64,000 bases of DNA from positions 1 through 64,000 of the forward strand of contig WLWZ01000002.1 of assembly GCA_012103315.1 (NCBI GenBank), read 5' to 3'. Made by a program: the position numbers and the translations under genes. Numbering within the stretch: the first letter of the stretch is position 1; every line of letters begins with the position of its first letter. This document shows positions 14,116 through 43,944 of this stretch, in pieces. Under the pieces are notes generated by a model. It made no database searches, had not been told where the DNA came from, and worked only from the letters and a program-made list of their open reading frames with translations. This DNA comes from Alphaproteobacteria bacterium (GTDB taxonomy: Bacteria > Pseudomonadota > Alphaproteobacteria > MPNO01 > UBA2964).

Positions 14116-15138
14116 CTATACCAGGTATAAACCCGCAAAAGAGATAAAGCCCGCGATGATCGGCGTGGTGATCCAACCCGAGGCTATCCCGGCCAGGACA
14201 CCATAATTCATCCCGCCGCCGCCTTTCAAAATCCACAGCCCCAGCATGGCACCGATAACGGCCTGGGTGCTCGAGACCGGCACTAACGGTATTGCCGGCA
14301 ACCCAACTCCGTGGAGCAGCGCCTCCAGATTTTGCGAGGCAAACAGGAACAAAACGATGGAATGCGACATTACCACGATCCATGCGGCAACCGGAGAGAG
14401 CGGCATCAAGCGGGCGCCGACCGTCAGCATGACCCTTTTTGAATAGGTGAACACACCCAGCGCGATTGCGATGCCTCCGAGAAGGAAAAGTTGTTGTACG
14501 CCGCTCAGGGTAAAGAGCCCACCAATATCGACGGGTGTCAGCGGATTAGCGGGAACGAAAACGCCCATGACATTGGCGATGTTGTTCGCGCCAAGGCTGT
14601 AGGCACCAAAGGCACCGGCAATGATTAAAGCGGTTCGGGTATAGGCATCCTGGCGAATGAGGTGAAGTTTTGCCGCTTTTAAAGCGGCCACCGTCGCTTT
14701 GTACAGAAGCATAGCGATTAGGCCGGCCAGAATCGGGCACGCAATCCAAGTGCCAACAATCTTGATTACGACGGATAGATCCGTGGGGGCTCCGTTGTGT
14801 AAGTTCCATCCAATAATCGCACCCACGATGGCCTGACTGGTGGATACGGGAAGCCCCAGGTGAGTCATCAATAAGACCGTAATCGCAGCCGCAACGGCAG
14901 CCACGAACGAACCTGAAAGCGTATCGATTGCGCCGAGCTTGCCCAACGTATCGGCGGCGCCCGCGCCACTGATAACCGCACCCAGTATAACGAAGACCGA
15001 ACAGATGACAGCCGCCCGGTTAAAACTCACCATACGGGAGCCCACCGCCGTGCCGAACACATTGGCTGCATCATTGGCGCCAAGCGACCACCCTAGGAAC
15101 AAGCCACCGGTCAGCAACAAGAGCACGGTCATATCCAT
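14116..15138 (-). CDS. pit: Inorganic phosphate transporter, Pit family
   Basis: The protein has 340 residues and is almost wholly hydrophobic (~10 helices). Duplicated PHO4 signatures are visible: GANDAANVFGTAVG near residue 20 with a partner GANNIANVMG near 185, and VSTSQAIVGA with VSSTQAVIGA. Family knowledge: Pit carriers move phosphate (often as metal-phosphate) with protons across the inner membrane. It lies 18 bp downstream of the DUF47 gene, a standard pairing, and both follow the phn operon on the same strand after only 65 bp. It could therefore handle phosphate released by PhnA (inference). Confidence 0.93.
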   Translation of the reverse strand: MDMTVLLLLTGGLFLGWSLGANDAANVFGTAVGSRMVSFNRAAVICSVFVILGAVISGAGAADTLGKLGAIDTLSGSFVAAVAAAITVLLMTHLGLPVSTSQAIVGAIIGWNLHNGAPTDLSVVIKIVGTWIACPILAGLIAMLLYKATVAALKAAKLHLIRQDAYTRTALIIAGAFGAYSLGANNIANVMGVFVPANPLTPVDIGGLFTLSGVQQLFLLGGIAIALGVFTYSKRVMLTVGARLMPLSPVAAWIVVMSHSIVLFLFASQNLEALLHGVGLPAIPLVPVSSTQAVIGAMLGLWILKGGGGMNYGVLAGIASGWITTPIIAGFISFAGLYLV

Positions 15139-15156
15139 AGCGGCTCTACCGTCAGC

Positions 15157-15819
15157 TCAAATTGCGCGCTTAATTGCGTAAATTCTCAACCGGTCGGCTA
15201 CATCTTCAGCGCCATCGGCCACATCGTCGATATATTCAGCAAAGCTCTTAATATGCATTTTGTGAGCAAGGTCGATTTCAGATTCGAAAATAGCCCGCTT
15301 CAGAATTGTACCGGCTCTGTCTGCTTCTTTCTCATAGAACATCACCTTATCTAGATCACCTGAAACGCTATCGACATTGGTGAAGAAGTCACGAGAAGCC
15401 CTAACCAGAAATTCGACACTTTGATTGCAAGCTTCCACGAGGTTTTGAAAGCCATCTACAAACTGGGTTGGGATGACAGGCTTCTCGATTGAAAACGCGT
15501 AAAGCCCACCTTCCATCAATCCATGAACCTGATCGAGAGTTTCCAATAATCCGAGCACATCACCACGTGATTCAGGGATCAACGTCTCACGATATATTTG
15601 GGCCTCAATGGATCGCCGCAATGCATCATCCCGGCTCTCCAACTCGGCAAGCCGCGCGACCATGTCGTTGAATTCCTGGGTCGGTCCATTACGCAGGTAG
15701 GTCAATATTGCGATCTGATAGGTCTTGGAAGATTCCGAAAGCTTGTCCAGAAATTCGCCAATTTCGGCTTCCAGAGACCGGCTTCGGGAGAACAGAGTTG
15801 TTTTTTTATTCATGAACAT
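15157..15819 (-). CDS. DUF47 / PhoU-like Pit accessory protein
   Basis: The protein has 220 residues, is all-helical and shows the PhoU-like DUF47 pattern: acidic metal-binding-like motifs EKEADR near residue 170 and EYIDDVADGAEDVADRL near 200. Family knowledge: DUF47 proteins are encoded with Pit carriers and modulate them. ATG 15819 is used here. ATG 15813 has a slightly better placed GGAA and could be the true start. Confidence 0.88.
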   Translation of the reverse strand: MFMNKKTTLFSRSRSLEAEIGEFLDKLSESSKTYQIAILTYLRNGPTQEFNDMVARLAELESRDDALRRSIEAQIYRETLIPESRGDVLGLLETLDQVHGLMEGGLYAFSIEKPVIPTQFVDGFQNLVEACNQSVEFLVRASRDFFTNVDSVSGDLDKVMFYEKEADRAGTILKRAIFESEIDLAHKMHIKSFAEYIDDVADGAEDVADRLRIYAIKRAI

Positions 15820-15884
15820 TTCCAGATTCCCAAGCTATTGCTCATTCGTCGGCGCGACCGGTTTCTTGACTGGCGGTCTGATCC

Positions 15885-17336
15885 TCAGCTGGGCCAAGGC
15901 ATCGAAAAAGTTTTTACATTGGTAAAACTCTTCATGGCTTCGACGACGCCTTCTTTGTATCCGAGTCCTGAATCCTTAATACCGCCAAACGGAGACATTT
16001 CGATACGAAAACCAGGCACCTCCCAAACATTGACCGTGCCCACCTTCAATTCATCAATAAACTGCGTGATGTAGTCCATGCGGTTCGTGCAAACGCCCGA
16101 AGAAAGACCATAGGCTGTCGAATTGGAAATCTTGATAACTTCGTCAATGTCGTCTGGACAACGAATAATCGGAACCACAGGGCCAAAGGTCTCCTGCTTA
16201 ACCAATTCACAATCATAGGGGACGCGATCCAGCAGGGTCGGTGAATAAGAAGCACCATTTCGAACATTGCCGTAGAGAAGTTCAGCGCCATTCTCGATGG
16301 CGTTATTGACCCGGCGCTCGAACAGCATGGCGGCTGTGTGGTCAATTACAGTGCCCACATCCACGTCGGGGTCCATGGGGTCACCGTGTTTCAGGTCTTT
16401 TACCTTCTCCTCAACTATCTTTACAAAGTCATCCCCAACGGCGTCCACGACCAGAATACGTTTTACCGCCGTACAACGCTGGCCGGAATTTTTTGTAGCA
16501 CCGGCCACTGCAAGGGTCGCTGCCCGTTCCAGATCCGCATCCTCCATGACAATTAACGGATCATTTCCGCCGAGTTCTAATACGGTTCGCCGATAGCCCG
16601 CTTTCTCTGCGATATATTTCCCTATTGGAACACCGCCGGTAAAAGTCACAAGTTCCACATGTTCATTGGTAATGAATTCGTCCGCAATGTCGGCAGGGTC
16701 ACCGGTGATGACCTGGAACATTTCTGCCGGCAACCCAGCTTCGTAAAGGACATCGGCCAGTAAGAGTGCTGTCAGCGGAGTCTTCTCGGTGGGCTTCAGG
16801 ACCATACAGTTGTTCGTCGCAATAGAGGGTGCGATCTTATGAGCGACCTGGTTCAAGGGGTGGTTGAATGGGGTAATGGCGCTTATCGCTGTTAACGGTT
16901 GGCGGTTTGTAAAAATTTTCCGTTTTGGTCCGGTCGGCGCAACATCACAGGAATAGATCTCGCCGTCGTCCATCAGTGTGAGGGCTGCAGCCAGATTAAA
17001 AACACTGTTGCACCGGGTAGATTCGTACAAAGAATCCTTTTTAGACAGCCCGGTCTCAGCGGTAATCAGATCAGAAACCTCGTCCTTTCGATCAAACAGA
17101 ATTCGTCCGGCCTTCTTAAGAATTTCGGACCGCTCAAACCTACTCAGAGAAGGCTGAAAGTCTGCCGCAGTCTGAAAAGCCCTGCGAACATCGGCAATCG
17201 TGGCTTTAGGCACCGTCCCAATAATAGCGTTGGTATATGGATTCAGAACTTCCAACCGTTCATCCCGGACACCGTCATCACCGACAAGCCGCAACGTTTC
17301 GTGAAGTATGTCGTTTCCTATATTAGAGGCATCCAT
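15885..17336 (-). CDS. phnY: Phosphonoacetaldehyde dehydrogenase (NAD-dependent)
   Basis: The protein has 483 residues and belongs to the aldehyde dehydrogenase superfamily. Catalytic Asn158 (TPFNHP), Glu254 (LELGGNDP) and Cys288 (SGQRCTA) are present. Family knowledge: PhnY oxidises phosphonoacetaldehyde to phosphonoacetate, the substrate of PhnA, and the assignment rests on the adjacent phnA and phn transporter. I chose ATG 17336 because GGAG lies 6 nt upstream. The longer start at 17357 would abut the phnA stop and has no ribosome binding site. A generic lactaldehyde/succinate-semialdehyde-type ALDH would look alike in sequence, so context is decisive. Confidence 0.9.
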
Positions 17337-17357
17337 TGTTTTCTCCAGTCCGACCAT

Positions 17358-18611
17358 TCAAGCAGCGTGATTCAGAGCAACATCAAAAATATCGAAATTG
17401 CGCAACCGTTGGTCTTTGGGCAGATCGGCCGCCCGCGTTAAAATCAGCGGCACCCTTTGTTCCGTCACACCTCCGTGAGACCGCAACGGCTTTTTCAGCT
17501 GGCTAAGATCATGGCGATCAGCGCTTGTACCCAGGACCTTATTTTTGTCGGATACAACGATTAGATCCCCCAGCCGATCTTCGGGCAATTCGAACTCGGC
17601 GCAACCACCTGCCCGGTCATAAACATTTGCGATGCCTGCAACCTCTGACAGTTTCGCAGCAATCTCCAACGGGTTGGTGTGATCGGGCAGATAAACCGTG
17701 GCAAAGGACCCCAAAGCCCCGTGATGGACTACGTAAGGATCGGTAATGGGCAGGATCACCCGAGCCACGGCCGCGCCGATCATATCGTCCAGCTCTTCCT
17801 GCAGATAGATAACGTCGGGTTCCCCATTGTCACCAAACTTGGCATTCATGCCATGATCGGCGGTCATCGCCAAATCCGCGCCCGCAGCATCCAGCTGAGA
17901 CCAGTACTTATCCATCATGGCGTAAAACTGATTGGCAATCGGCGTACCCGGCGCGTGTTTGTGCTGGATATAATCCGTCGTCGACAGATACATAATGTCC
18001 GGGCGCATGCGGCTCATCAACTTGACACCCGCATCAAAAATGAATTCAGAAAGTTCTGCGGAATACACGTCGGGGATGTCCCGGCCAACCATGGCTTGTG
18101 CGTCTTCGATACCGTTTTCCGCCATGGTTGTCTCATCCGCTTTTTCCGATGAGAACGAAATCGCCCGGCCCGATGCAAAATCCAAACCATGCCCCAAAAG
18201 GCGTCGCAACTTGTCTTTGGCCGTAACAATCGCCACCTTGGCACCGGCGTCATGAAACGCCTTGAATATGGTGTCGGCCCGCAGAAACTTGGGGTCGTTC
18301 ATCATCACCTCTTCCCCGCTATCTGGATCGAGAAAGAAATTGCCTGAAATACCGTGAACGCGGGGAGGTCTGCCGGTAACGATCGATAGATTGTTCGGAT
18401 TGGTAAAGCTGGGCACAACACAATCAGCACGGAGATCCGACCCTTTTTCTAGGGCCGCGGCTAGAAACGGCATGTGACCACCGGCAATGGCCTGCTCAAT
18501 ATAGTCTGGCTCAGAGCCATCAATGCAAACAACCACAAGCGGCCGCTTCGGCCAGGCATAAGTCCGGCCATTCACTTCGATAGAGTCTGGAATAGTCTGG
18601 GTTGACGTCAT
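17358..18611 (-). CDS. phnA: Phosphonoacetate hydrolase
   Basis: The protein has 417 residues and an alkaline-phosphatase-fold zinc hydrolase layout. Asp31 (CIDGSEPD), nucleophile Thr70 (SFTNPNN), Asp213 and His217 (STTDYIQHKH), Asp252/His253 (TADHGMN) and His379 (RSHGG) supply the two-zinc site. Family knowledge: PhnA cleaves phosphonoacetate to acetate and phosphate. It differs from the unrelated, misnamed PhnA of E. coli. Start ATG 18611 is preceded by GAGG at 8 nt. The longer start at 18629 has no ribosome binding site. It lies between the phnE genes and phnY in one operon. Confidence 0.93.
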   Translation of the reverse strand: MTSTQTIPDSIEVNGRTYAWPKRPLVVVCIDGSEPDYIEQAIAGGHMPFLAAALEKGSDLRADCVVPSFTNPNNLSIVTGRPPRVHGISGNFFLDPDSGEEVMMNDPKFLRADTIFKAFHDAGAKVAIVTAKDKLRRLLGHGLDFASGRAISFSSEKADETTMAENGIEDAQAMVGRDIPDVYSAELSEFIFDAGVKLMSRMRPDIMYLSTTDYIQHKHAPGTPIANQFYAMMDKYWSQLDAAGADLAMTADHGMNAKFGDNGEPDVIYLQEELDDMIGAAVARVILPITDPYVVHHGALGSFATVYLPDHTNPLEIAAKLSEVAGIANVYDRAGGCAEFELPEDRLGDLIVVSDKNKVLGTSADRHDLSQLKKPLRSHGGVTEQRVPLILTRAADLPKDQRLRNFDIFDVALNHAA

Positions 18612-18697
18612 TGCGATTACCTCATTCAAATTTCATTCGACCGATTTCCTCCACCCCCTTTGCCGCCGCTAACCCGCGCACATTGTGGGATAGGGAT

Positions 18698-19540
18698 TTA
18701 TTTCATTTTCATGACCCGGGCTCGGGCCCACGCGGAAACTATTTCAGATACAATCACCAGCGCGACGATAGATAAGAGGATAGCCGCAACCCGCTCCGTC
18801 TCTATCTGCTGCACGTTTCGTTTCAAGTACCACCCCATACCGCCCGCACCGAAAAATCCGACAACCGTTGCCGCGCGGAAAGCCACGTCCCAGGTGTATA
18901 TGCCGATTCCTGTAAAAGCGACACGGATCTGCGGATACACCCCCCAGATGACCACCTGAAACAAATTTGCCCCGGTCGCTTTCATAGCTTCCACAGGGCC
19001 CATATCAATAGCCTCTATTTCTTCGGCAAGTAGTTTGCCCGCGAAACCGGCGCAAAAGAACGTAAGCGCCAAGACGCCGGCTAACATACCGAAACCCAAT
19101 ATTGACACGAACAGGATCGCCCAAATCATCTCGTGAACCGCGCGGAATCCCATGGTCGCAAAACGGGCCACCGGATATACAAAGCGGCGGCTGGGAGTCA
19201 CGTTATAAGCGCCAAACCACCCCAACGGCAGTGTTAACGCGAGCCCGAATAACGCACCCAAGTAAGCCATCTGCACGGTTTCGATTACGTATTGAAAGTA
19301 ATCGGCATCGATTATGTATTCGATATCTGGCGGGTAATAACGATTGGCTAATGTGGACCCCATGCGTCCAAACATGCCGAACAGCCGATCCAACGGGATA
19401 TCCAGATATTCAATGCCCCAGACAATGAAAACGAACACGCCCATCCACGCGCTCCAGCTGATAGCCGTGTCGGGAAACTTGAAACGGCTCCACTCGTGCG
19501 TGGTGGATGAAGTCGGGCCCGGAGTTCCTGCAGGTTTCAT
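18698..19540 (-). CDS. phnE: Phosphonate ABC transporter permease (second PhnE)
   Basis: The protein has 280 residues and about six transmembrane helices. The permease coupling (EAA) loop reads EEIEAIDMGPVEAMKATGAN, the form typical of PhnE. It overlaps the upstream permease by 4 bp (ATGA). Two different permeases in one operon imply a PhnE1-PhnE2 heterodimer with one PhnC ATPase and one PhnD binding protein. Confidence 0.9.
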   Translation of the reverse strand: MKPAGTPGPTSSTTHEWSRFKFPDTAISWSAWMGVFVFIVWGIEYLDIPLDRLFGMFGRMGSTLANRYYPPDIEYIIDADYFQYVIETVQMAYLGALFGLALTLPLGWFGAYNVTPSRRFVYPVARFATMGFRAVHEMIWAILFVSILGFGMLAGVLALTFFCAGFAGKLLAEEIEAIDMGPVEAMKATGANLFQVVIWGVYPQIRVAFTGIGIYTWDVAFRAATVVGFFGAGGMGWYLKRNVQQIETERVAAILLSIVALVIVSEIVSAWARARVMKMK

Positions 19541-20376
19541 ATAATTGACTTCCGGACATAGTGAGACACCACTTCACCGATCAAGATCAGGGCTAGGATG
19601 GCGACGATAACCGACGTCACGCCGTGATAATTAAACGTGTGCATCTGGCGAAAAAAGACGAGGCCCAGACCGCCCGCACCAACGAGACCCAAAATCGCGG
19701 AGCGGCGAATATTGATCTCCCATTCGAAAATTACAGTCCCCAATATCTGCGGCAGTACCTGGGGCAGAATGGCGAAAATAACCACTTGGAGTGTATTAGC
19801 GCCGGTTGCCTTAATCGCCTCTACCGGTCCTGGATTGATGTCTTCTATCGCTTCAGCCGACATTTTGGCAATGAAGCCAACCGACCGGACTGCGATGGCG
19901 AAGATACCCGCCATGGCACCCAAGCCCACAGCGGCGACGAAAAACAGGGCCCAGACGATCTCATGAATTGAACGGCTGAGCGTCATCATCAGCCGAGCCA
20001 GAGGATAGGTCACGGATTTGAAAGGCGTGATATTCAGGGCTCCAAACCAGGTCGCCGGAAGGCAAATTACCACGCCCAGTATCGTTCCAAGGCTGGCAAT
20101 GACTAGTGTCTCAATCGCGGGTACAAGAAGGCTGGGAAACAGCCCTATATCAACACCGATAAAACGGCCCGCGGATTTCAGGACAGCACCCAACGATCCC
20201 ATCCGCTCCCAGTCGGTATCGTCAATAATTGTTACCTGGATACTCCAAACCACGAGAGCGAGGAGCACAAAATAGTATGCGGATCGCCGGACATTGCTTT
20301 TTCGGCGCAGCAGTAAAAGGCTCTCAAACGCTTGATCGCGTCGGGCCTGGTCAGAGGGGCTGGCGACCGAATTCAT
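19537..20376 (-). CDS. phnE: Phosphonate ABC transporter permease (first PhnE)
   Basis: The start ATG 20376 lies 2 bp after the phnC stop. A longer reading from 20397 would overlap phnC and has no support. The protein has ~279 residues, a hydrophilic N-terminus, about six membrane helices and the EAA-like loop EAIEDINPGPVEAIKATGAN, clearly related to the second permease's loop. Family knowledge: it forms the transmembrane path of the phosphonate importer. Inner membrane. Confidence 0.9.
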   Translation of the reverse strand: MNSVASPSDQARRDQAFESLLLLRRKSNVRRSAYYFVLLALVVWSIQVTIIDDTDWERMGSLGAVLKSAGRFIGVDIGLFPSLLVPAIETLVIASLGTILGVVICLPATWFGALNITPFKSVTYPLARLMMTLSRSIHEIVWALFFVAAVGLGAMAGIFAIAVRSVGFIAKMSAEAIEDINPGPVEAIKATGANTLQVVIFAILPQVLPQILGTVIFEWEINIRRSAILGLVGAGGLGLVFFRQMHTFNYHGVTSVIVAILALILIGEVVSHYVRKSII

Positions 20377-20377
20377 C

Positions 20378-21130
20378 CTATAGAACTTCCATGGCATAAA
20401 TCTCGTTGAGACGTTCTTCGTTCATATCTTCCGTCGGGCCGTCAAACATTTTGACGCCGTCTTGGAGCCCAATAATCTTGTTGCAGAATTCCATGGCTAA
20501 ATTGACATCGTGGATATTACACAGGCAGGGCACTTTAAGCTCACGCGCCATTTCGAGAATCAAGGCCATCACTTCCCGCGAAATTTTCGGGTCAAGCGCA
20601 GATGTAGGCTCATCAAGCAACAGTAACTTTGGATCTTGCATCAATGCGCGGGCGATACCTACACGCTGGCGCTGCCCTCCAGACAGCTCGTCGGCGCGTT
20701 TGTCCACATGATCAATTAGCCCAACACGGTCGAGCAGCGCCAAGGCGTGCTGGATATCGGTTTTCTTAAACGCGCGAAAAATACTGCGGATGGTGCCCGT
20801 ATAGCCAAGACGGCCGGACAGCACATTGTCCATAACGCTCATGCGGTCTATCAGGTTGAATTCCTGAAATATCATGCCGATGTCTCGACGGAGCGAACGT
20901 AACTCCCTGGAATTCAGTTTTGTTACGTCCTGCCCTTCAAAAAATATTTCGCCCGACACCGGTTCCACCAACCGGTTGATGCATCGGATTAAGGTCGATT
21001 TGCCTGCCCCGCTCGGCCCGATGATTGCGAAGAAGTCATCGTCTTCCACATCGAAAGAGACGGACTTAAGAATCTCGGGTCCACGGGCACTATATTTAGC
21101 GATCAGGTTGCGGACTTCCAGTATGGGCAC
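20378..21130 (-). CDS. phnC: Phosphonate ABC transporter ATP-binding protein
   Basis: The protein has 250 residues, with a GTG start and AGGA about 9 nt upstream. Complete ATPase motifs are present: Walker A GPSGAGKST, Q-loop FQEFNLIDRM, signature LSGGQRQRVGIARAL, Walker B LLLLDEPTSALD and His switch (CNIHDV). Family knowledge: it energises phosphonate uptake through PhnE. It is separated from phnD by 191 bp that include a probable attenuating hairpin. Confidence 0.93.
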   Translation of the reverse strand: MPILEVRNLIAKYSARGPEILKSVSFDVEDDDFFAIIGPSGAGKSTLIRCINRLVEPVSGEIFFEGQDVTKLNSRELRSLRRDIGMIFQEFNLIDRMSVMDNVLSGRLGYTGTIRSIFRAFKKTDIQHALALLDRVGLIDHVDKRADELSGGQRQRVGIARALMQDPKLLLLDEPTSALDPKISREVMALILEMARELKVPCLCNIHDVNLAMEFCNKIIGLQDGVKMFDGPTEDMNEERLNEIYAMEVL

Positions 21131-21199
21131 GATTGGTGTCCTATTTCAGATGTTGCTACTACCGTAAGGACATCCACGTAACAGCGTGTCTGCTCCTAC

Positions 21200-21227
21200 A
21201 AAACGAACTCAATCAAATTAGAGTTCG
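21200..21227 (-). terminator. Hairpin with short U-tract between phnD and phnC (possible attenuator)
   Basis: A perfect 7-bp inverted repeat (CGAACTC/GAGTTCG) with a 10-nt loop is followed on the minus strand by TTTT. It lies within the operon. Partial termination here would lower phnCEEAY expression relative to the binding protein gene phnD. Confidence 0.5.
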
Positions 21228-21321
21228 GAAGGAGATGTCAGCCGGGCAGAGATCAAGTGGGAAGAGTTCACACACAATCCTACCCGGCCGTTATCTGCTG
21301 AAGTTATAGTCTCTCGAACGA

Positions 21322-22254: not shown

Positions 22255-22315
22255 TTCAAGTCTCCCTTTTCAAATGGTTTAAATTATCAAACGCCAATTT
22301 TACTAAACTACAACA

Positions 22316-35680: not shown

Positions 35681-35699
35681 GAGTGACTAACTGTCACTC
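35681..35699. promoter_or_regulatory. Inverted repeat GAGTGAC-N5-GTCACTC upstream of tctB-like gene
   Basis: A perfect 7-bp dyad ends 13 bp before the ATG of the TctB-like gene. Candidate operator or translation-affecting hairpin. A GGAGGAG run just before it is too far from the ATG to act as its ribosome binding site. Confidence 0.4.
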
Positions 35700-35712
35700 A
35701 GTTGCCTAATTA

Positions 35713-36345
35713 ATGGCGAAGTCTGACAACATTCTCGCTTCGGCCTCTGATGACGATGCCGAAACCACCCTATCGGCGTCCGTGGATATGGATACACCGA
35801 CCCATCGAGGCGACAGCATTGCAGCGTTGCTTTGCCTGGTTGGCGGTCTTGTCGGATATTTCCTGATCGTTCCGGCGGCCGTTTACGTGCCTCCCCAGTT
35901 TGCCGGTACCGCTAATTCGCCAGCATTTCTGCCTAACGTTCTATTTCTTATACTCGCTGCGTTGGGTTTCATTTATTTGGTCTACAGCGTAGCCGCGCAA
36001 CTTCGGAATCCGACTCAGGGGTGGGCCCATCCTTCGGACTGGCTATTGGCTGGCGGCACCGCACTTATCTGCGTCGGCTATGTATTGTTCATTTTCGGTA
36101 TCGGAATGACACTCGGCTCAGCTCTCTGCGTTGCCGTTACGATGATTTATTTTGGTGAGCGCCGACCGTGGTTAATTGGCGCGATCACCGTCATTCTGCC
36201 GGCACTATTGTGGTATTTCTTTGTCAAGGTTGCCCATATCCTGCTGCCCCCCTCTTGGCTCGGCATTATGGACTGGTTAGAGGCAGGAATCACACACGAT
36301 GGAATGACAAGAATGGCGGGTTTCATCACCTCGCTCGGGACGTGA
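35713..36345 (+). CDS. Tripartite tricarboxylate transporter, small membrane subunit (TctB family)
   Basis: The protein has 210 residues. A hydrophilic ~35-residue N-terminus is followed by four to five transmembrane helices, as in TctB proteins. The start is uncertain: ATG 35713 lacks a ribosome binding site, and ATG 35788 is an alternative. Family knowledge: TctB pairs with TctA in the inner membrane to import organic anions delivered by a TctC protein. It is followed after 12 bp by the large subunit. Confidence 0.82.
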   Translation: MAKSDNILASASDDDAETTLSASVDMDTPTHRGDSIAALLCLVGGLVGYFLIVPAAVYVPPQFAGTANSPAFLPNVLFLILAALGFIYLVYSVAAQLRNPTQGWAHPSDWLLAGGTALICVGYVLFIFGIGMTLGSALCVAVTMIYFGERRPWLIGAITVILPALLWYFFVKVAHILLPPSWLGIMDWLEAGITHDGMTRMAGFITSLGT

Positions 36346-36357
36346 CGGGAGAATGTT

Positions 36358-37869
36358 GTGATTGAGTTCGACCAACTCCTTCAAAGTGTCCCATTGGTTC
36401 TCCGTTGGGAAGTGTTGGCAGCGTGCCTAGGTGGCGTTATCTGGGGGATGTTTGTTGGGGTCACGCCAGGCCTGACCGGAATTATGGCGGTTGTCATTGC
36501 CTTGCCACTTACATTTTTTATGGATCCGCAGACAGCCATTGCGCTGTTGCTTGGAATCTACGTGACGGCGATTTACGGAGGCTCGGTCACCGCCATAATG
36601 ATCGCGACTCCGGGCACCCCCAATGCCGCTGCGACAGTTTTGGATGGCTACCCGCTTGCACGCCAAGGCAAAGCCCGTCAGGCTCTTGAGATGGCGCTTT
36701 ACGCCTCATTCACCGCCGGCATTCTGTCAACTGTGGTTGCGCTGTTAATTTTCCCAATCGTCGCTAATGTCGCACTCGCCTTCGGCGCTGCTGAAGTCTT
36801 CGCAGTAATTGTGTTTTCAATTACCATCATTGCCGGTGTTTCGGGAGATTCCCTGCTTAAAGGAATGATTGCAGCGTGTTTCGGGTTCTTAGTGGCAACG
36901 ATTGGTCAGGATCCCATTCACGGATCCAGTCGTTTTACTTTTGGGGTTCACGATTTTCAGGCCGGCATGCACATTCTGACTCTTCTTGTGGGTTTGTTCA
37001 CGATACCTGAGATCATTGTCCGAGGTATTGAAGCGTACAAGGCGCGAAATACGGCGACAGTTGGCGATATGGGGGAGAGTATGACATTCCGCCAGTACCT
37101 CAGCTATTGGCGGACTTATATCAGATCCTGCATTGGCGGCTCGTTGCTCGGCGCCCTGCCAGGGCTTGGCGGCAGTCCGGCTGCCTTTCTGGGCTATTCG
37201 GTAGCTCAACGCTTTTCAAAAACCCCGGAGAAGTTTGGGAAAGGGTCTTTGGAAGGTATCGCTGGTGCTGAGGCTGGCAATAATTCGGTCTGTGGCCCAG
37301 CTCTCGTTCCTATGATGTCGCTCGGCATCCCGGGAGATACGACGACAGCAGTGCTGATGGGTGCACTGGTCATTCACGGGCTCAACCCGGGCCCAATGCT
37401 GTTCGAAGAGGCCCCGAACTTCGTATACAGCGTTTTCCTGCTGCTCTTCATCAGCCTAATCTTTCAATTGGGGGTTGGGTCTGGTGTTGTCCGTATGGCC
37501 AAGTACGTTGTACGCATGCCCACCCAAATCCTGTTTCCCGTGGTTCTGATTTTGGCGACGTATGGAACCTACGCCGTACGCGGCACGATGGTCGACGTCA
37601 TATCAATGTATGCCATCGGTTTTCTAGGTTTCTTGATGCGCATTCAAAAGATTCCAGCCGCGCCCTTTGCCATCGCTTTTATTCTCGGGCCCTTATTTGA
37701 GAATGAGTTGCGCAAGTCATTGATTATCTCCGGCGGTTCTCTTGAAATTTTCGTGGATAGTGGAATTTCGATAACATTCCTGACCCTCGCTGCGTTGAGT
37801 GCAGGCGCCTCGGTTTATTTTCATCGGCGTCTTAAGGGGTCGAATGCTGCAAAATTTATTACCAACTAA
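36358..37869 (+). CDS. Tripartite tricarboxylate transporter, large permease subunit (TctA family)
   Basis: The protein has 503 residues, starting at GTG 36358 with GGGAG 7-8 nt upstream. About eleven to twelve membrane helices are visible. TctA hallmarks: GVTPGLTGIMAVVIALPLTF near residue 32 and GALPGLGGSPAAFLGY, with IPGDTTTAVLMGAL, near residues 260-335. Inner-membrane sodium- or proton-coupled permease. Located directly after phnW, so its substrate may be a phosphonate or a carboxylate partner (inference). Confidence 0.92.
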   Translation: MIEFDQLLQSVPLVLRWEVLAACLGGVIWGMFVGVTPGLTGIMAVVIALPLTFFMDPQTAIALLLGIYVTAIYGGSVTAIMIATPGTPNAAATVLDGYPLARQGKARQALEMALYASFTAGILSTVVALLIFPIVANVALAFGAAEVFAVIVFSITIIAGVSGDSLLKGMIAACFGFLVATIGQDPIHGSSRFTFGVHDFQAGMHILTLLVGLFTIPEIIVRGIEAYKARNTATVGDMGESMTFRQYLSYWRTYIRSCIGGSLLGALPGLGGSPAAFLGYSVAQRFSKTPEKFGKGSLEGIAGAEAGNNSVCGPALVPMMSLGIPGDTTTAVLMGALVIHGLNPGPMLFEEAPNFVYSVFLLLFISLIFQLGVGSGVVRMAKYVVRMPTQILFPVVLILATYGTYAVRGTMVDVISMYAIGFLGFLMRIQKIPAAPFAIAFILGPLFENELRKSLIISGGSLEIFVDSGISITFLTLAALSAGASVYFHRRLKGSNAAKFITN

Positions 37870-37940
37870 AGCGAAGGGTAACATTCGCAAATACACCAAA
37901 AATAATTCACAATGAGAAATTGGAAAAAATGGAGGATTAA

Positions 37941-38930
37941 ATGCAACATAATGGAAAATTAGGATTGTTGACGACGGCGCTAGTAACCGCCGGATTGATG
38001 GCTGCGACATCGGCCGTCGCGGGTGAGTACCCCGATAAACCGATCAAGCTTGTCGTTGCATCAGGGGCCGGTGGCTCGACTGACACTGCGGCTCGGATTA
38101 TGGCAATCAATATTCAGGACCATTTGGGCCAGCCCATCATCGTCGTAAATAAAAAGGGTGCTTCCGGCGGCATCGGTATCAACTTCGCATTGAAAGGCAA
38201 GCCAGACGGCTATCTGTTGATGGAAGGGATGATTGGCGGCCACGTTCTTCACCCGGCCATGAACACATCGACCGGGTATACACCGGCAGATTATACGCCC
38301 ATCGCGATGACTCAGATGAATCCAAATGTTCTGATCGTCAAAGCGGACTCTCCGTACAAGAACCTCGGCGACCTGCTCGGCGCAATTAAAGCCAAGCCGG
38401 GCAAGCTGAAATTTTCTCACGCTGGAGCCGGCAGTATCCATTACTTTGGCATTCACCTTCTGTTAAAGACAGCGGGATTGGGCAAGAATTCTGCAGTTTC
38501 CATTCCGTACAAGGGTGGCAAGCGGTCCATGGCTGGTCTCCTCCGCGGCGAGGCTGACTTCCACCAGACCAATCTGGTGTCGGCCATTAGCTTCATCAGG
38601 GCTGGCAAGGTGCGTGCTCTGGCGGTAACAACTAAAAAGCGCCTAAAAGGCTTTCCCAAAGTGCCGACCTACGCGGAATTGGGATATCCCAAAGTGGACA
38701 TCTTTGGTTGGCGCGGCGTAATTGGACCAAAGAACCTGCCTCAGGCAATCGTCGATAAATGGGCGAAAGCTGTCCAGGCCACAATGAAGCGCAAGGGCTG
38801 GAAGAAGATGGTCAAGGCCGTAGGCGATGTTCCCCGCTACATGGGGCCTGAAGAGTTCACAAAGCACATCGCAAGCGACTTCAAGCGCTATCGCGCAATG
38901 GCGACGGACTTGGGTATCCTCGTCAAGTAA
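37941..38930 (+). CDS. Tripartite tricarboxylate transporter periplasmic binding protein (TctC/Bug family)
   Basis: The protein has 329 residues with a strong GGAGG ribosome binding site. The signal peptide ends near AVAG (residue ~28). The Bug-family core follows: YPDKPIKLVVASGAGGSTDTAAR, VVNKKGASGGIGI, and KPGKLKFSHAGAGS. Family knowledge: these proteins bind small carboxylated anions, and Bug proteins as a group are often redeployed to new ligands. It is the last gene of the TctB-TctA-TctC set, closed by a strong hairpin. Confidence 0.92.
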   Translation: MQHNGKLGLLTTALVTAGLMAATSAVAGEYPDKPIKLVVASGAGGSTDTAARIMAINIQDHLGQPIIVVNKKGASGGIGINFALKGKPDGYLLMEGMIGGHVLHPAMNTSTGYTPADYTPIAMTQMNPNVLIVKADSPYKNLGDLLGAIKAKPGKLKFSHAGAGSIHYFGIHLLLKTAGLGKNSAVSIPYKGGKRSMAGLLRGEADFHQTNLVSAISFIRAGKVRALAVTTKKRLKGFPKVPTYAELGYPKVDIFGWRGVIGPKNLPQAIVDKWAKAVQATMKRKGWKKMVKAVGDVPRYMGPEEFTKHIASDFKRYRAMATDLGILVK

Positions 38931-38948
38931 TTTAAGCACGTTAAATGG

Positions 38949-38971
38949 CGGGCGTCCGCGATGGACGCCCG
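38949..38971 (+). terminator. Strong hairpin after the tctC-like gene
   Basis: CGGGCGTCC / GGACGCCCG form a 9-bp perfect stem with a 5-nt loop 18 nt past the stop codon. No U-tract follows, so it may act as an mRNA-stabilising or Rho-assisted terminator. It also argues against translation of the next gene beginning this far upstream. Confidence 0.55.
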
Positions 38972-39077
38972 TCACCCTTATGGGCGTACCCGTTCGCGGG
39001 TCCCATGTACGACATTTCCTCAAGCTGAGCATAAATCCGTGGGCAAAATTACAGAGCGCAACACTGATCAATCCACC

Positions 39078-41258
39078 ATGGAGACATGGGGTTCGGTGAC
39101 CATTTCACCGACCGACGATGTTGTTGTTGGCAGTTTCTCCACCTGGACCCTGACCTTTACGGTAGGCGCCTACGCTATGGATGTAGGCGGCGGTCTCAAG
39201 ATCGGCACACGGCGTCAGGCCGATTTCGGCTCTCCCCAGTTCGATGACCCGACGGCTGATAACTATGCCTCCGTTAGCTGCTCCCGGGAGGGGACCCGGT
39301 TCGACTGTAAATTCGATCATCGTGGCCACAAGCGACCCTTCAACGCCGTTACTGTGATCCGGCTCGCTGCAGGCCCGCTTTATCCAGGCGATACCATCAC
39401 TGTCGTTCTGGGCGACACGTCAGGCGGCTCCCGCGGGCTCGCGGTCCAATCCTTTCCTGAGGCGGCCAGTGATTTCGCGGTTTTCATGGATCCGCTCAGT
39501 TCCGGCGAATACAAACGCGTGTATTGCGCCTCGCCTCATTTCCAGATTCTTACCGGCCCGTCCGAGTATTTCACCGTGGTCGCACCCACCCTTGTCCAGT
39601 CGGGCAAGCCGTTTCGCGTTCAACTGCGCGGCAATGACAGGTTCGGCAACCCGACGCCGGTTACCGCACCCAATCTTACCCTGGGCGCCGACCCGGCCGT
39701 TGACGTCAGCCTGTCCGAGAGCAATGTCCGGGCCACATGGGTCGACGGGATAATCCTGCATAAAGAGGGCGTGCACAGGCTGGAACTCAAGGATGGGGGC
39801 ACCGTCCTTGGCACGAGCAATCCCATCGTGGTGCGCGAGAGGACCGACGAGATAATCTGTTGGGGCGACACACAGGCACAGACGGCATCGACCGTCGGCG
39901 TGGGCACGCCCGATGAGTATTTTGCTTACGCCCGCGACCTGGCAGCTATCGATTTTACCACCCATCAAGGCAATGATTTCATTCTGTCAGATGCGGATTT
40001 GGAGGAGGTTCGCCAGGCGGCGAAGAAATACAATGAACCTGGCCGGTTCGCTGCCTTTTTCGGCTGGGAATGGTCCGGTCCAACCGGTACTGGCGGCGAT
40101 CGCAACGTGATGTTTCTCAATGATGAAGGCCCCATCTACCGAAGCAGCCACTGGCAGCTGTGGGACGAGGAACTGGCAGAAAACGCCAGCGAGACCGAAT
40201 GTCTCCACGCCCGCGATCTACAGGATAAGATGCGGGCGTACATCGCGGAGACAGGCCATAAGGTCATCATGGTGCCCCATATTGGCGGCCGGCGGTCCGA
40301 TTTCGAGGTCCAGGATCCGGAGCTCGAACCGGTTTTCGAAATCTGCTCCAACCATGGCGTGTTCGAGTGGCGCTTGCATGAATTTCTCGCAGCTGGCGTT
40401 CGGGTTGGTATCGTCGGCGCCAGTGATGACCACACCTGCAGGCCTGGCCTGGCTTACCCATCAACCCCGGAAATGACCATCCTCGGCGGACTCGGCGCCG
40501 TCTATGGCCGTGAAGTCAGTCGCAAAGGTATTTATGATGGAATGATGGCCAGACAATGCTATGGCACCACAGGTGCGCGCCTGTATCTTGACGTTTCCGT
40601 CAATAAGCACGCCATGGGACAGGCCTTCAAGGCGGACGGAACGCTACGCGTGAGCGGGACAGTCCACGGGACTGCACCCATCGAATCCATCAGTCTTTTC
40701 AACCGCAGCGAGGAGCTGAAACGCTTCCAGCCCAACCCCAAAACGCGGGATCCGGCCCGAATCAAGATCATCTGGTCCGGCGCCACCCATCAGGACCGAG
40801 GCCGCTTCATGACATGGGATGGCGGACTTGAGATGACCGGCGGCAGCATCACGGGAGCGGCGCCACTAAACATATTCACCGCCAAATACGGAATCGATGA
40901 TTGGGGGGAGCAGCATGTCCGCTGGCGGTCCGTCACCTCGGGTCAAGAGGAAGGCGTGCTCCTCGAAATCGATGCCCCCGATGATGCGGTGGTTTCATTC
41001 GACGCGGGCCCGGCGAAATTGGAGTTCACCCTAGGCCAGGCGCGATCCGAAGATTTGCGTTGGGACCTGGGCGGTCTCGAACAATATGTGACCGCCAGCA
41101 CCCTGCATACCGAAGACGGCACCTGCGACGCCGATTTCGAATTCGTGGACGAGGCACCGGGCAATGAGGAACAGGCCTATTGGGTACGGGTGGTGCAGAC
41201 CGATTTCCACCGCGCCTGGAGCAGCCCCATATATGTTGAACCGACGAAAGGGCCGTAA
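39078..41258 (+). CDS. DUF3604-like (PHP-related) protein of unknown function
   Basis: The protein has 726 residues from ATG 39078. The frame is open back to 38961, but that part overlaps the hairpin. The N-terminal ~230 residues look beta-rich (WGSVTISPTDD, WTLTFTVGAYAMD). From ~residue 250 the DUF3604 pattern appears: CWGDTQAQT where relatives have GDLHxHT, DFTTHQGND, FFGWEWSG, MVPHIGG, EICSNHG and GASDDHTCRPG. Family knowledge: DUF3604 proteins resemble PHP-domain metal hydrolases but are uncharacterised to my knowledge. It starts a tight operon with an FGly hydrolase (5-bp gap) and an aminotransferase, probably acting on one substrate (inference). Confidence 0.7.
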   Translation: METWGSVTISPTDDVVVGSFSTWTLTFTVGAYAMDVGGGLKIGTRRQADFGSPQFDDPTADNYASVSCSREGTRFDCKFDHRGHKRPFNAVTVIRLAAGPLYPGDTITVVLGDTSGGSRGLAVQSFPEAASDFAVFMDPLSSGEYKRVYCASPHFQILTGPSEYFTVVAPTLVQSGKPFRVQLRGNDRFGNPTPVTAPNLTLGADPAVDVSLSESNVRATWVDGIILHKEGVHRLELKDGGTVLGTSNPIVVRERTDEIICWGDTQAQTASTVGVGTPDEYFAYARDLAAIDFTTHQGNDFILSDADLEEVRQAAKKYNEPGRFAAFFGWEWSGPTGTGGDRNVMFLNDEGPIYRSSHWQLWDEELAENASETECLHARDLQDKMRAYIAETGHKVIMVPHIGGRRSDFEVQDPELEPVFEICSNHGVFEWRLHEFLAAGVRVGIVGASDDHTCRPGLAYPSTPEMTILGGLGAVYGREVSRKGIYDGMMARQCYGTTGARLYLDVSVNKHAMGQAFKADGTLRVSGTVHGTAPIESISLFNRSEELKRFQPNPKTRDPARIKIIWSGATHQDRGRFMTWDGGLEMTGGSITGAAPLNIFTAKYGIDDWGEQHVRWRSVTSGQEEGVLLEIDAPDDAVVSFDAGPAKLEFTLGQARSEDLRWDLGGLEQYVTASTLHTEDGTCDADFEFVDEAPGNEEQAYWVRVVQTDFHRAWSSPIYVEPTKGP

Positions 41259-41263
41259 CCGGT

Positions 41264-42649
41264 ATGAGCGGATCTAAACCAAACCTGATATTCGTATTCG
41301 CTGACCAGCTGCGCGCGTCCTCGGTCGGGTATGCTGGCCAGGAGGCCGTGCGGACGCCCAACATCGACGCATTTGCCGAATCCGGCGCCCAATATGCCAA
41401 CGCTGTCTCCATGTTGCCGGTCTGTGGCCCCTATCGCGGCTCTCTAATCACCGGCCGCACGCCGACCTCAACCGGTCAGGTCATCAACGATGTAAAGCTT
41501 AGAACCACAGAGGTGAGTATTGCGCATTGTTTCAAGGCGGCCGGTTACGACACGGCCTATGTGGGCAAGTGGCATCTGGATGGCCCGAACCGTCCCGCGC
41601 CGGTGCCGCCGGGGCCAAGGCGGCAGGGTTTCGAGTACTGGATGGGCGCCAATTTCGAGCACAATTACAACCGGTCCTACTTCACCGACAATGATGGCAA
41701 TTTGAAAATATGGCGGGATTGGGATGCCGAAGCCCAGACCAGCCATGCCATCGATTACTTGAAAGAGCGGGACAGCCAGAATCCGTTTTGCCTTTTCCTG
41801 TCCTGGGGGCCCCCACACCACCCGTACCGGCTTGTCCCGGAACGCTATCTGGACATGTATGATCCCGAGGCTATCCAAGGTAGACCCAACTGTCCGGACG
41901 TACCCAAAGAGGATTTGCAGGGCTACTACGCGCAGACCACTTTCCTCGACGATCAGTTCCAGCGTCTGCTCGATGCGCTGGATGACATGGGGATCGCCGA
42001 CAATACAATTGTCGTCTTCACCTCCGATCACGGTGACATGCACGGCTCCCACGGGGTCTACAAAAAACAGTGGCCCTGGAACGAGGCCATCAAGATACCG
42101 TTCGTCATCCGGTACAACGGCGTGGTGCCACAGGGCGCAAAAATAGAAGAACCGATCAACGTCATCGATGTTATGCCCACGCTTCTCGGGCTTGCCGACG
42201 TGCCCGTGCCAGATACGGTGGAAGGGGTCGATTTGTCACCCTATCTGACGGGCGCCCAGGAAGATCCGCCGGAATCGGTGTTGATCATGAATCCGTGTCC
42301 GTTTTCCATCGGCGATCCAAGGGGCGAAGACCAGTACCCCGATTACAAGGGCATGCGGTTCGAGTACCGGGGCGTCATTACCGCGCGCTACACCTATGTC
42401 CGGACCATCGATCAGCCCTGGCTGCTATACGACAATTTGGACGACCCCTACCAGATGACCAACCTTATCGACGATCCGAAACATTCTGATACGCGCGACC
42501 GTCTTGACGGGCTGATGCGGGCCCACATGGATCGTATCGGCGATGAGATGCATCCCCGGGATACTTACTACAAAAGATTTGGCATCGAGTTCGACCATCG
42601 GGGCAAAGTCGTCGATCTGGTGGAGAATATTTACAACCGATCGGGGTGA
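41264..42649 (+). CDS. FGly-dependent sulfatase-family hydrolase (sulfatase or phosphonate/phosphate esterase)
   Basis: The protein has 461 residues. Metal-site Asp14 (FADQLR) and the formylglycine motif CGPYR (Cys54-Arg58, C-x-P-x-R) followed by GSLITGR show a type I sulfatase catalytic centre. GKWHLDG, WGPPHHPY and TSDHGD complete the active site. Family knowledge: FGly enzymes of this fold cleave sulfate esters, but some are phosphonate monoester hydrolases. The phosphonate context makes the latter possible (inference). Cytoplasmic, with no signal peptide. Its stop overlaps an alternative GTG start of the next gene. Confidence 0.82.
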   Translation: MSGSKPNLIFVFADQLRASSVGYAGQEAVRTPNIDAFAESGAQYANAVSMLPVCGPYRGSLITGRTPTSTGQVINDVKLRTTEVSIAHCFKAAGYDTAYVGKWHLDGPNRPAPVPPGPRRQGFEYWMGANFEHNYNRSYFTDNDGNLKIWRDWDAEAQTSHAIDYLKERDSQNPFCLFLSWGPPHHPYRLVPERYLDMYDPEAIQGRPNCPDVPKEDLQGYYAQTTFLDDQFQRLLDALDDMGIADNTIVVFTSDHGDMHGSHGVYKKQWPWNEAIKIPFVIRYNGVVPQGAKIEEPINVIDVMPTLLGLADVPVPDTVEGVDLSPYLTGAQEDPPESVLIMNPCPFSIGDPRGEDQYPDYKGMRFEYRGVITARYTYVRTIDQPWLLYDNLDDPYQMTNLIDDPKHSDTRDRLDGLMRAHMDRIGDEMHPRDTYYKRFGIEFDHRGKVVDLVENIYNRSG

Positions 42650-42666
42650 GACAGGAGTCTGACGCA

Positions 42667-43944
42667 ATGAACCCGTTAATCGAACGCGCTGCTAAGGTAT
42701 TTCCCGGCGGGACGTCCAATGGCGAGTTTGGATTGCCACCTGAGCAGATCGTGGTCATGGAACGGGGCGAGGGATGCCGCCTTTGGGACAGCGATGGCCG
42801 CGAATTCCTGGATTTTTCCATGGGATGGGGATCGTGCCTCGTGGGTCATGCTAATCCCGACGTGGTCGAGGCCGTGGGCAAACAGGTGCCGCAGGGTTCC
42901 AACTTCTCGTACCTCAACCCACACGCGCTTGCAGTTGCCGAAGAAATCGCGCGCGTCGCGCCCGCCGCTGAGCGCCTGCGGTTCTGTGCATCGGGAACCG
43001 AGGCCAACATATACTGCCAAAGGCTGGCCAAGGGCTACACAGGCAAATCGAAGCTCCTGAAATTCGAAGGCGCTTACCATGGCGCGAACGAGCCGGGGGT
43101 GACCAGTTTGTTCCCGACCCAGCTCCTCGATTTCCCTGAACCGGAACTGACCAGCGCTGGCACCCCCATGGCGAAGTTCGACCTGCTGGTTGCGCCATAC
43201 AACGATTTGGAGATCGCACGGAAGATCGTCTCGGAACACGCCCATGAGCTGGCAGCCATCATCATGGAACCCCTGCAGCGATGCACGCCACCGAAAGAGG
43301 GTTACCTGGAAGGGATTCGGTCGCTGTGTGACGAATTTGGCCTGCTTTTGGTTTTTGACGAAGTGGTGACCGGTTTTCGCCTCGCCTATGGCGGCGCACA
43401 GGAATATTACGGCGTCATTCCCGACCTGGTCGCCTACGGTAAAGGGCTGGGCGGTGGATATCCCATCGGGGCGGTGGCCGGTCGCGCCGACATCATGAAC
43501 TGGTTCGACGAAGAGCGTATCGGGTCAGATAACTATGTCTGGATGGCGTCTACGTTGGGCGGCAATCCCATTTCCATGGCGGCCGCCAATGCTACCCTGA
43601 CAGTCCTTCGCACGCCCGGCACGTACGAAAGATTGCATGCGCTGGGCAAGTACTTCCGAAACTCACTTGCTCGGGTCCTGCGAGACCGACAGATTACGGG
43701 GCAGGTCATCGGCGATGGTCCCTTGGCCCAGATCGTTTTCTCACCGGACCCCGTCAACGATTATCGCTCGACGGCCAAGGGCGATAAGGAACGGGGCCGC
43801 CGGATGATGCTGGGATTATTCGAGCGCTGCGTGTTCCTGAACCCCATGGGGACAAAGCTTTATTTGTCCATCGCCCATGACGAAAACGTCTGCGATCAGT
43901 TTTGCGAACGGCTGGACGATATATTCTCGAAATCAGAAGACTGA
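42667..43944 (+). CDS. Class III aminotransferase, glutamate-1-semialdehyde aminotransferase-like
   Basis: The protein has 425 residues from ATG 42667, with AGGAG about 10 nt upstream. GTG 42646 would overlap the sulfatase stop. PLP residues: Asp231 (LLVFDEVVTGFR) and Schiff-base Lys259 (AYGKGLGGG). The N-terminus (FPGGTSNGEFG) resembles HemL-type aminomutases and related omega-transaminases, but the surrounding catabolic genes argue against a heme role. Probably removes or moves an amino group on the unknown substrate of this operon (inference). Confidence 0.8.
   Translation: MNPLIERAAKVFPGGTSNGEFGLPPEQIVVMERGEGCRLWDSDGREFLDFSMGWGSCLVGHANPDVVEAVGKQVPQGSNFSYLNPHALAVAEEIARVAPAAERLRFCASGTEANIYCQRLAKGYTGKSKLLKFEGAYHGANEPGVTSLFPTQLLDFPEPELTSAGTPMAKFDLLVAPYNDLEIARKIVSEHAHELAAIIMEPLQRCTPPKEGYLEGIRSLCDEFGLLLVFDEVVTGFRLAYGGAQEYYGVIPDLVAYGKGLGGGYPIGAVAGRADIMNWFDEERIGSDNYVWMASTLGGNPISMAAANATLTVLRTPGTYERLHALGKYFRNSLARVLRDRQITGQVIGDGPLAQIVFSPDPVNDYRSTAKGDKERGRRMMLGLFERCVFLNPMGTKLYLSIAHDENVCDQFCERLDDIFSKSED

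Follow-up and report, generated by a model that had tools for sequence, protein, structure and literature searches.

In an alphaproteobacterial genome of the UBA2964 lineage (Alphaproteobacteria bacterium, assembly GCA_012103315.1, contig WLWZ01000002.1), a region of about 30 kb (14116-43944; 23 genes in three blocks) has at its core, as judged from its sequence, the known hydrolytic pathway of phosphonate catabolism, and beside it a flavoprotein of the dimethylglycine dehydrogenase (DMGDH) type whose gene recurs in phosphonate (phn) loci of other bacteria. Positions are those of the 64,000-nucleotide stretch that was analysed (1-64,000 of the contig), referred to throughout as the window. We consider it rather likely that this is a hydrolytic phosphonate-catabolic region, probably gained laterally, in which the DMGDH-type protein acts as a demethylase that widens the entry to the pathway, and which a module for ester-linked substrates may possibly feed. 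The genes on which this view chiefly depends are as follows.

24548-26998, minus strand: DMGDH-type four-domain flavoprotein of 816 residues, with an FAD half and a folate-binding half (Pfam DAO, FAO_M, GCV_T, GCV_T_C)
34292-35506, plus strand: PhnW, 2-aminoethylphosphonate:pyruvate aminotransferase (NF010006, 578 bits, cut-off 296)
29247-30647, plus strand: PbfA, an ammonia-lyase (NF049939 equivalog, 655 bits, cut-off 525)
15885-17357, minus strand: PhnY, phosphonoacetaldehyde dehydrogenase (TIGR03250, 795 bits, cut-off 636)
17358-18629, minus strand: PhnA, phosphonoacetate hydrolase (TIGR02335, 552 bits, cut-off 408)
18698-19540 and 19537-20397, minus strand: two PhnE permeases (TIGR01097, 231 and 241 bits, cut-off 217)
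20378-21130, minus strand: PhnC ATPase (TIGR02315, 313 bits, cut-off 266)
21322-22254, minus strand: PhnD-type binding protein (over the TIGR01098 subfamily cut-off, 213 bits to 112; below that of the TIGR03431 equivalog, 239 to 261)
22316-23464, minus strand: phosphonate-type iron alcohol dehydrogenase (Fe-ADH) at the head of the operon (TIGR03405, 458 bits, cut-off 424)
15157-15819, minus strand: DUF47/PhoU_div partner of Pit (PF01865, E 4e-17)
14116-15138, minus strand: Pit/PHO4-family phosphate transporter at the end of the operon (PF01384, E 6e-48)
23566-24450, plus strand: LysR1, a regulator of phn_lysR type (TIGR03339, 319 bits, below the cut-off of 341; next best family 167)
33273-34154, plus strand: LysR2, phn_lysR family (TIGR03339, 341.2 bits, over the cut-off of 341.1 by 0.1 bit)

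The first block is an operon-like run on the minus strand (14116-23464; Fe-ADH, PhnD, PhnC, PhnE, PhnE, PhnA, PhnY, DUF47, Pit) whose widest gap, between phnD and phnC, is 191 bases. Pit and DUF47 exceed their Pfam cut-offs and no NCBIfam cut-off, and for the two LysR proteins the best competing families reach at most 173 bits. PhnW, PhnY and PhnA orthologues, which together make up the hydrolytic pathway for 2-aminoethylphosphonate (AEP), all score over curated cut-offs. By family assignment, PhnW would convert AEP, and PbfA (R)-1-hydroxy-2-aminoethylphosphonate (HAEP), to phosphonoacetaldehyde, from which PhnY would form phosphonoacetate and PhnA acetate and phosphate (Pi); PhnCDEE would provide uptake, and Pit/DUF47 would handle the phosphate. 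Profile searches of the whole assembly, which is 98.4% complete, found no PhnX of the phosphonatase route (E<=1e-20), no PhnJ of the C-P lyase (E<=1e-10) and no Phn-HD oxygenase of the PhnZ/TmpB type (E<=1e-15), so that PhnY-PhnA is the only route of C-P cleavage found. The first-pass annotation, made from the letters of the window, had placed the region at the correct coordinates, and its statement that neither C-P lyase nor phnX is seen thus extends to the entire assembly. It had also held that every known enzyme here feeds or drains phosphonoacetaldehyde or phosphonoacetate, which is borne out by family assignment for PhnW, PbfA, PhnY and PhnA; the Fe-ADH does not belong to the enzymes so supported. 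Being a PF00465/TIGR03405 protein, the latter is not the racemase PbfF, a PF02826 protein according to PMC12366243, and for the name PsrA, given to its family in NCBIfam, no description was found in the titles and abstract openings of the matching literature.

The 816-residue protein has the complete four-domain architecture of DMGDH and DMGO and is co-linear with its solved members, aligning over residues 8-805 with dimethylglycine dehydrogenase (PDB 4pab, E 4e-158). His50 of its WHAAG motif, which we take to be the site of covalent FAD attachment, is present in at least 98% of 52 aligned rows, and a search of the genome at E<=1e-20 found no other protein of this type. Enzymes of the DMGDH family use the FAD half to oxidise an N-methyl group, which the GCV_T half then passes on to tetrahydrofolate. 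Given the phosphonate gene context, from which the substrate is predicted, the protein most likely N-demethylates N-methyl-aminophosphonates: aminophosphonates with one or two N-methyl groups (N-methyl- or N,N-dimethyl-) would be oxidised at such a group by the FAD half, tetrahydrofolate would receive the carbon from the GCV_T half, and PhnW or PbfA could take over the resulting AEP or HAEP. This proposal draws on the conserved linkage described below.

To what extent the DMGDH-type gene travels with phosphonate genes was assessed in a class sample of 385 genomes, beside which a relatives sample of 61 genomes and further chosen genomes were searched. In the class sample, with matches counted at E<=1e-250 and at most two candidates scored per genome, 134 DMGDH-type hits occur in 101 genomes and PhnW hits (E<=1e-90) in 78, 75 of them over the cut-off; 42 genomes, our own included, carry both. 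The two genes lie within 10 kb of each other in seven of the 41 other genomes with both, with 0.35 expected (Poisson 9e-8, a value that ignores relatedness and assumes a flat genome of 4 Mb). These seven (G381, G304, G070, G147, G365, G250 and G257) fall into five genera and so do not represent seven independent events. In the window, in locus L049 (genome G412), on pSymB of Sinorhizobium meliloti (L067) and in L119 (G070), the DMGDH-type gene is directly convergent with a LysR gene, on whose other side phn genes lie in divergent orientation, the gaps measuring 2-97 bases; in L067 a Na/Pi cotransporter gene comes first on the divergent side. The same order with intervening genes is found in L068, L069, L107, L108 and L120, while in L117 and L118 the gene stands fourth after PhnW-PhnA-PhnY on the same strand (tblastn edges 61 and 18 bases apart). 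In L115, PbfA precedes it on the same strand at a distance of 62 bases.

A tree was inferred from 52 rows, comprising the window, flanked loci from the top DMGDH-type matches, the linked loci, L049 and plasmid loci. The window protein belongs to a clade of 11 (bootstrap 99, SH-aLRT 93), of which nine, including the window itself, are phn-linked; the remaining pair are found at the ends of contigs, L104 with 218 bases on one side and L084 on a contig of 3.2 kb. Across the tree the phn label needs seven changes as compared to 13.1 for shuffled labels (0 of 500 shuffles as low), indicating that the linkage arose or was lost several times. As the linked loci were added to the tree on purpose, the linked share is overstated, and the count of genes within 10 kb of PhnW should be taken as the unselected test. 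The sequence comparisons thus lend good support to the view that the recurrent folate-type flavoprotein is a new element of phn loci; in the open-licence literature we found no description of a DMGDH-type protein in phosphonate catabolism.

Two further observations concern these loci. In L120 (G365, 9733-13965), genes for a LysR, TmpB, TmpA, the DMGDH-type protein and a kinase-like protein lie directly beside PhnW-PhnA-PhnY, with TmpB and TmpA between the LysR and DMGDH-type genes, so that the trimethyl-AEP oxygenases and the hydrolytic route share one locus. In the clade members L104, L106, L107 and L108 a different iron alcohol dehydrogenase adjoins the DMGDH-type gene, those of the first three being 4-hydroxybutyrate-dehydrogenase-like, below cut-off.

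The closest known arrangement is the PhnW-PhnY-PhnA locus on pSymB of S. meliloti strain ml28 (L067), which, as annotated, shares PhnW, PhnA, PhnY, a phosphate transporter, a LysR with 48% identity to LysR2 and the DMGDH-type gene in the same relative layout. The window adds PbfA, the Fe-ADH and genes for an importer, a DUF3604 protein, a formylglycine (FGly) hydrolase and a phosphoesterase; it has PhnCDEE instead of an AEP-type ABC transporter, and its PhnW is split from PhnA-PhnY. According to PMC10590968, N-methyl-AEP is a common relative of AEP that PhnW cannot process, marine organisms have yielded N,N-dimethyl-AEP, and trimethyl-AEP is degraded through a route of two oxygenases. The same source describes PbfB, PbfC and PbfD, likewise PF01266 FAD amine oxidoreductases recurring in AEP clusters, as oxidising N-methyl-AEP, and shows for PbfC and PbfD that phosphonoacetaldehyde and methylamine are formed. 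Compared with these enzymes, which to judge from the text of the paper have no folate domain, the 816-residue protein carries GCV_T and GCV_T_C and would be predicted to demethylate its substrate to AEP rather than release phosphonoacetaldehyde and methylamine; with FAO_M, GCV_T and GCV_T_C it would not count as an oxidase of the PbfB/C/D type. A term search of the main text of PMC10590968 gave no mention of "folate" or "GCV". From the solved DMGDH/DMGO proteins (PDB 4pab, 1pj5), with which it shares full-length co-linear architecture and the WHAAG motif, the window protein differs by its phosphonate gene context. The DMGDH-type enzyme in phnWYA loci, including that of S. meliloti, is a candidate for a second logic of using methylated aminophosphonates, with demethylation first and recovery of the one-carbon unit.

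The first-pass annotation had taken the extra enzymes as a sign that the organism handles several phosphonates, or one complex one, beyond AEP. This is well founded for HAEP through PbfA and, by the conserved DMGDH-type linkage, for N-methylated aminophosphonates; for the phosphoesterase, TctBAC, DUF3604 and FGly genes it holds only in part. These and the other genes of the region are listed next.

27158-29203, plus strand: GpdQ-type metallophosphoesterase fused to a probable TIM-barrel domain (PF00149, alignment, PDB 2dxl/2zo9)
35713-36345, 36358-37869 and 37941-38930, plus strand: TctB, TctA and TctC of a tripartite tricarboxylate transporter (TTT) importer (PF07331, PF01970, PF03401)
38961-41258, plus strand: DUF3604 (CehA/McbA-like) protein (PF12228, E 4e-15)
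41264-42649, plus strand: FGly hydrolase of the sulfatase/phosphonate-monoesterase superfamily (PF00884, E 3e-53; C-x-P-x-R motif CGPYR, residue 54)
42646-43944, plus strand: HemL-like class-III pyridoxal-phosphate enzyme (TIGR00713, 323 bits, below the cut-off of 527), overlapping the FGly gene by 4 bases
30672-31979, plus strand: single-domain DAO-type flavoprotein, an amine oxidase (PF01266)
31942-33261, minus strand: MFS transporter (PF07690)

In the middle block (24548-31979), 159 bases separate the DMGDH-type gene from a divergent plus-strand trio (27158-31979) of phosphoesterase, PbfA and second flavoprotein, with gaps of 43 and 24 bases, the phosphoesterase gene being the first of the unit. 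LysR1 is divergent from the first block and convergent with the DMGDH-type gene. The third block, on the plus strand after the MFS gene (33273-43944), comprises LysR2, PhnW, TctB, TctA, TctC, DUF3604, the FGly hydrolase and the HemL-like enzyme; PhnW and TctB are 206 bases apart, and the gaps from TctC through DUF3604 and FGly to the HemL-like gene are 30, 5 and -4 bases. All genes named in the first-pass annotation are present by profile matches, with PhnD and LysR1 somewhat short of their curated cut-offs; its list missed or under-described the GCV_T half of the first flavoprotein, DUF3604, the HemL-like enzyme and the MFS gene.

The phosphoesterase reading frame opens at 26921, with a conserved start at about 27158. 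Its N-terminal domain matches GpdQ (PDB 2dxl, 2zo9) by profile, and a Foldseek search with a modest structure model (pLDDT 62) likewise ranks GpdQ first, followed by the glycosyl hydrolase PslG; the PslG match probably corresponds to the C-terminal half, in which predicted strands and helices alternate. Residues D17, H19, D61, N97, H98, H180, H221 and H223, presumably metal ligands, are invariant in four aligned sequences. The window protein thus shares the metallophosphoesterase domain and probable metal-site residues of GpdQ and differs by its greater length, the second domain that probably matches the PslG TIM barrel, and the position of its gene beside PbfA. On plasmids of Variovorax and Cupriavidus, two relatives cover most of its length, and a TctC gene follows each of them. 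Among six relatives in the class sample besides our own, four (G380, G210 and G303 of one genus, and G372; L168-L171) sit with TctA, TctC and sulfatase-type genes; around another (L167) the window's other genes were not found within 19.5 kb, and L166 lies on a contig of 3.2 kb. The phosphoesterase is therefore usually associated with a TTT importer and a hydrolase of the FGly type, and the phosphonate link is particular to the window and, via PhnDCEE and LysR, to loci of the L016/L017/L022 type.

TctA, TctB and TctC make up a complete tripartite tricarboxylate transporter, for which phosphonate transport is putative. A scan for DUF3604 that covered 84,980 species with a single genome each, and that is sensitive to close relatives only, returned eight loci with 72-83% identity, by title from Rhodospirillales, Magnetovibrio and other alphaproteobacterial metagenome-assembled genomes. 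Beside DUF3604 are found TctA and TctC in seven of the eight, PhnDCEE instead of TctBAC in the eighth (L017), the FGly hydrolase in five, the phosphoesterase in three and, in seven (L015 being cut), a LysR that shares 40-44% identity with LysR1 or LysR2; for the two of these seven regulators that were scanned, phn_lysR is the best family by far, below cut-off (311 and 303 of 341 bits). L016 and L017 carry a zinc dehydrogenase, that of L016 matching best to HpnZ ("phosphonate catabolism associated"; 284 of 328 bits, below cut-off) and that of L017 being 83% identical to it. PhnW is over cut-off elsewhere in seven of the eight module-carrying genomes and in 75 of 385 of the class sample (Fisher 9e-5), a comparison confounded by lineage and genome size and to be read as support only. 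DUF3604 at E<=1e-100 is rare, being found in four of the 385 genomes, our own included. One of these four (G329) has TctBAC, two DUF3604 genes and the FGly gene together, and the nearest DMGDH-type relative (82%) on another contig; for the other two, G113 and G403, whose DUF3604 is 34% identical, no module partner was found.

The TctBAC/DUF3604/FGly/phosphoesterase genes are thus a real conserved unit, and the sequence evidence that ties them to phosphonates is suggestive only. A role in phosphonate-ester use is plausible but weaker than the demethylase assignment: TctBAC might import an ester-linked aminophosphonate, for example the deacylated head group of a phosphonolipid, which the GpdQ-type phosphoesterase, DUF3604 and FGly hydrolase might then open. 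In that case it could be studied genetically, by way of the module, how phosphonate esters, not free phosphonates, might enter hydrolytic pathways. We regard it as doubtful that the whole region serves to degrade N-methylated aminophosphonates in ester linkage, phosphonolipid-type or other, from TTT import through ester opening to a folate-dependent N-demethylation that would keep the methyl group as methylene-folate, not methylamine. The FGly protein belongs with the phosphonate monoester hydrolase PehA (PDB 2w8s) to the sulfatase superfamily and shares its FGly motif; it is closer in sequence to arylsulfatases and far under every named sulfatase or PehA model (PehA NF045661, 143 of 900 bits; choline sulfatase, 175 of 433). 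In DUF3604, Gln replaces His in the motif D-x-H-x-Q in the window (GDTQAQ) and in eight of ten relatives, the two most distant rows keeping His; we take this His to be an expected metal ligand, so that one ligand would be replaced in the window. A structure model of DUF3604 (pLDDT 72) gave scattered Foldseek hits of low TM-score, with no PDB chain by profile, and was not used. No open-licence literature combining DUF3604 and phosphonate was found. In G329, tandem DUF3604 genes (about 55% and 51% identical to that of the window) lie between TctBAC and the FGly hydrolase (L051, 9366-13770). Beside the module in L017 (2-1930) is a large protein that we take to resemble the large subunit of N,N-dimethylformamidase, without an NCBIfam match.

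Several observations weigh against the reading proposed here, for the module as well as for the demethylase. A conserved linkage of the extra genes to phnW, phnY and phnA in relatives, by which the first-pass annotation wanted its view judged, did not show for the module: phnW, phnA, phnY and pbfA were not found in the fetched flanks of any of the eight relatives, three of which are on contigs of less than 10 kb. Distant DUF3604 genes sit with unrelated genes, and the phosphoesterase relatives of L168 and L171 lie near true choline sulfatases (over cut-off) and parts of sarcosine oxidase (SoxA/SoxB). A serious, if minority, possibility is that phosphoesterase, TctBAC, DUF3604 and FGly hydrolase are a module for choline or ethanolamine esters, such as choline sulfate or glycerophosphocholine, which came to lie next to the phosphonate genes, in keeping also with the TctA/TctC of L168 and L171 and with a choline-sulfatase-like protein just outside the region (45473-46930, below cut-off). 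It accounts less readily for the LysR relatives in seven of eight loci, PhnDCEE in place of TctBAC in L017, the HpnZ-like dehydrogenases of L016 and L017, the 43 and 206 bases that separate the phosphoesterase from PbfA and TctBAC from PhnW, and the low choline sulfatase score of the window FGly protein.

With respect to the DMGDH-type gene, 37 of the 52 tree rows are unlinked in their flanks and the label needs its seven changes, meaning that the same fold serves other N-methyl substrates; the clade member L104 (G329, 82% identical) has 7.9 kb on its other side without a phn gene; the G365 relative beside TmpA/TmpB could act on betaine-derived dimethylglycine; and in Sinorhizobium and Aminobacter a DeoR gene precedes the DMGDH-type gene, directly or one gene off, making control of its own possible. 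In a pairwise comparison of five intergenic regions for a shared LysR site, two of ten pairs share 14 bases with two mismatches, with four of 100 shuffled pairs at two or fewer. It is conceivable, and in our view fairly unlikely, that the protein acts on dimethylglycine or sarcosine, in choline/betaine catabolism or on betaine from trimethyl-AEP, as a mere neighbour of phosphonate genes. Its best solved relatives are indeed dimethylglycine dehydrogenases, relatives of about 50% identity have carnitine genes or ETF/FolD genes as neighbours, and the two-oxygenase route, represented by TmpA/TmpB in G365, yields trimethylglycine (PMC10590968). However, the window genome lacks Phn-HD/TmpB at the threshold given above, nine of the 11 clade members are phn-linked with the other two at contig ends, and members of other clades, too, stand on one strand in a run with PhnWAY or PbfA, all of which speaks against such a role.

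The relatives sample contains 26 further genomes of the order (eight of the same genus, several incomplete), and PhnA was not found at E<=1e-60 in any of them. Of the 13 genes at 24.5-44 kb, nine have a third-codon-position GC content (GC3) of 0.65-0.71 and four of 0.56-0.63; in 25 other window genes it is 0.47-0.65. From both we conclude that the cluster was probably gained by lateral transfer, which may have brought it in two pieces. Among 11 genomes of the genus and family that were searched, seven have a different PhnW (44-50% identical) over cut-off; phnA and phnY were not found around it in six fetched surroundings (6.6-19.9 kb). No direct repeat of at least 12 bases of the 3' part of tRNA-Arg (45346-45422), which would point to integration there, was found elsewhere in the window. 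That an ordinary phnWYA/pbfA cluster took up unrelated inserted genes with no common function would fit the missing PhnA, the raised GC3 and the module relatives without direct phn-enzyme linkage, but is improbable in view of the tight spacing with PbfA and from TctC to the HemL-like gene, and of the independent phn linkage of the DMGDH-type gene.

Of the other genes, the second flavoprotein (30672-31979) reaches 121 bits against the aminophosphonate oxidoreductase model TIGR03329 (cut-off 633), a model that may or may not correspond to PbfB, PbfC or PbfD; an identity with PbfB was set aside, three neighbourhoods of 47-48% homologues having no annotated phn genes. The HemL-like enzyme, for which a separate HemL candidate exists on another contig (C7), was not found in the related modules L015-L022, and a phosphonate link elsewhere was rejected: a 38% homologue in Azospirillum B510, 1.8 kb from PbfA, is too weak and on the opposite strand, and one in Roseovarius, one gene from a DMGDH-type gene, has no annotated phosphonate gene in the 22 kb covered. 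PbfA neighbourhoods on four plasmids were compared, with phnW-phnA-phnY-pbfA in Ruegeria (L152), phnW, pbfA and a DAO-type gene in Azospirillum B510 (L146) and only a LysR beside PbfA in Ensifer (L151); in these three mapped loci the four-domain protein, TctBAC, DUF3604 and the phosphoesterase were not found, and by annotation the A. thermophilum PbfA neighbourhood (L147) has no phn gene. Across tRNA-Arg from the region, the choline-sulfatase-like protein at 45473-46930 is a second FGly sulfatase (CVPAR), and directly to the left of the region (12188-13885) lies a sulfatase-fold protein without the C-x-P-x-R motif and with a low GC3 of 0.47.

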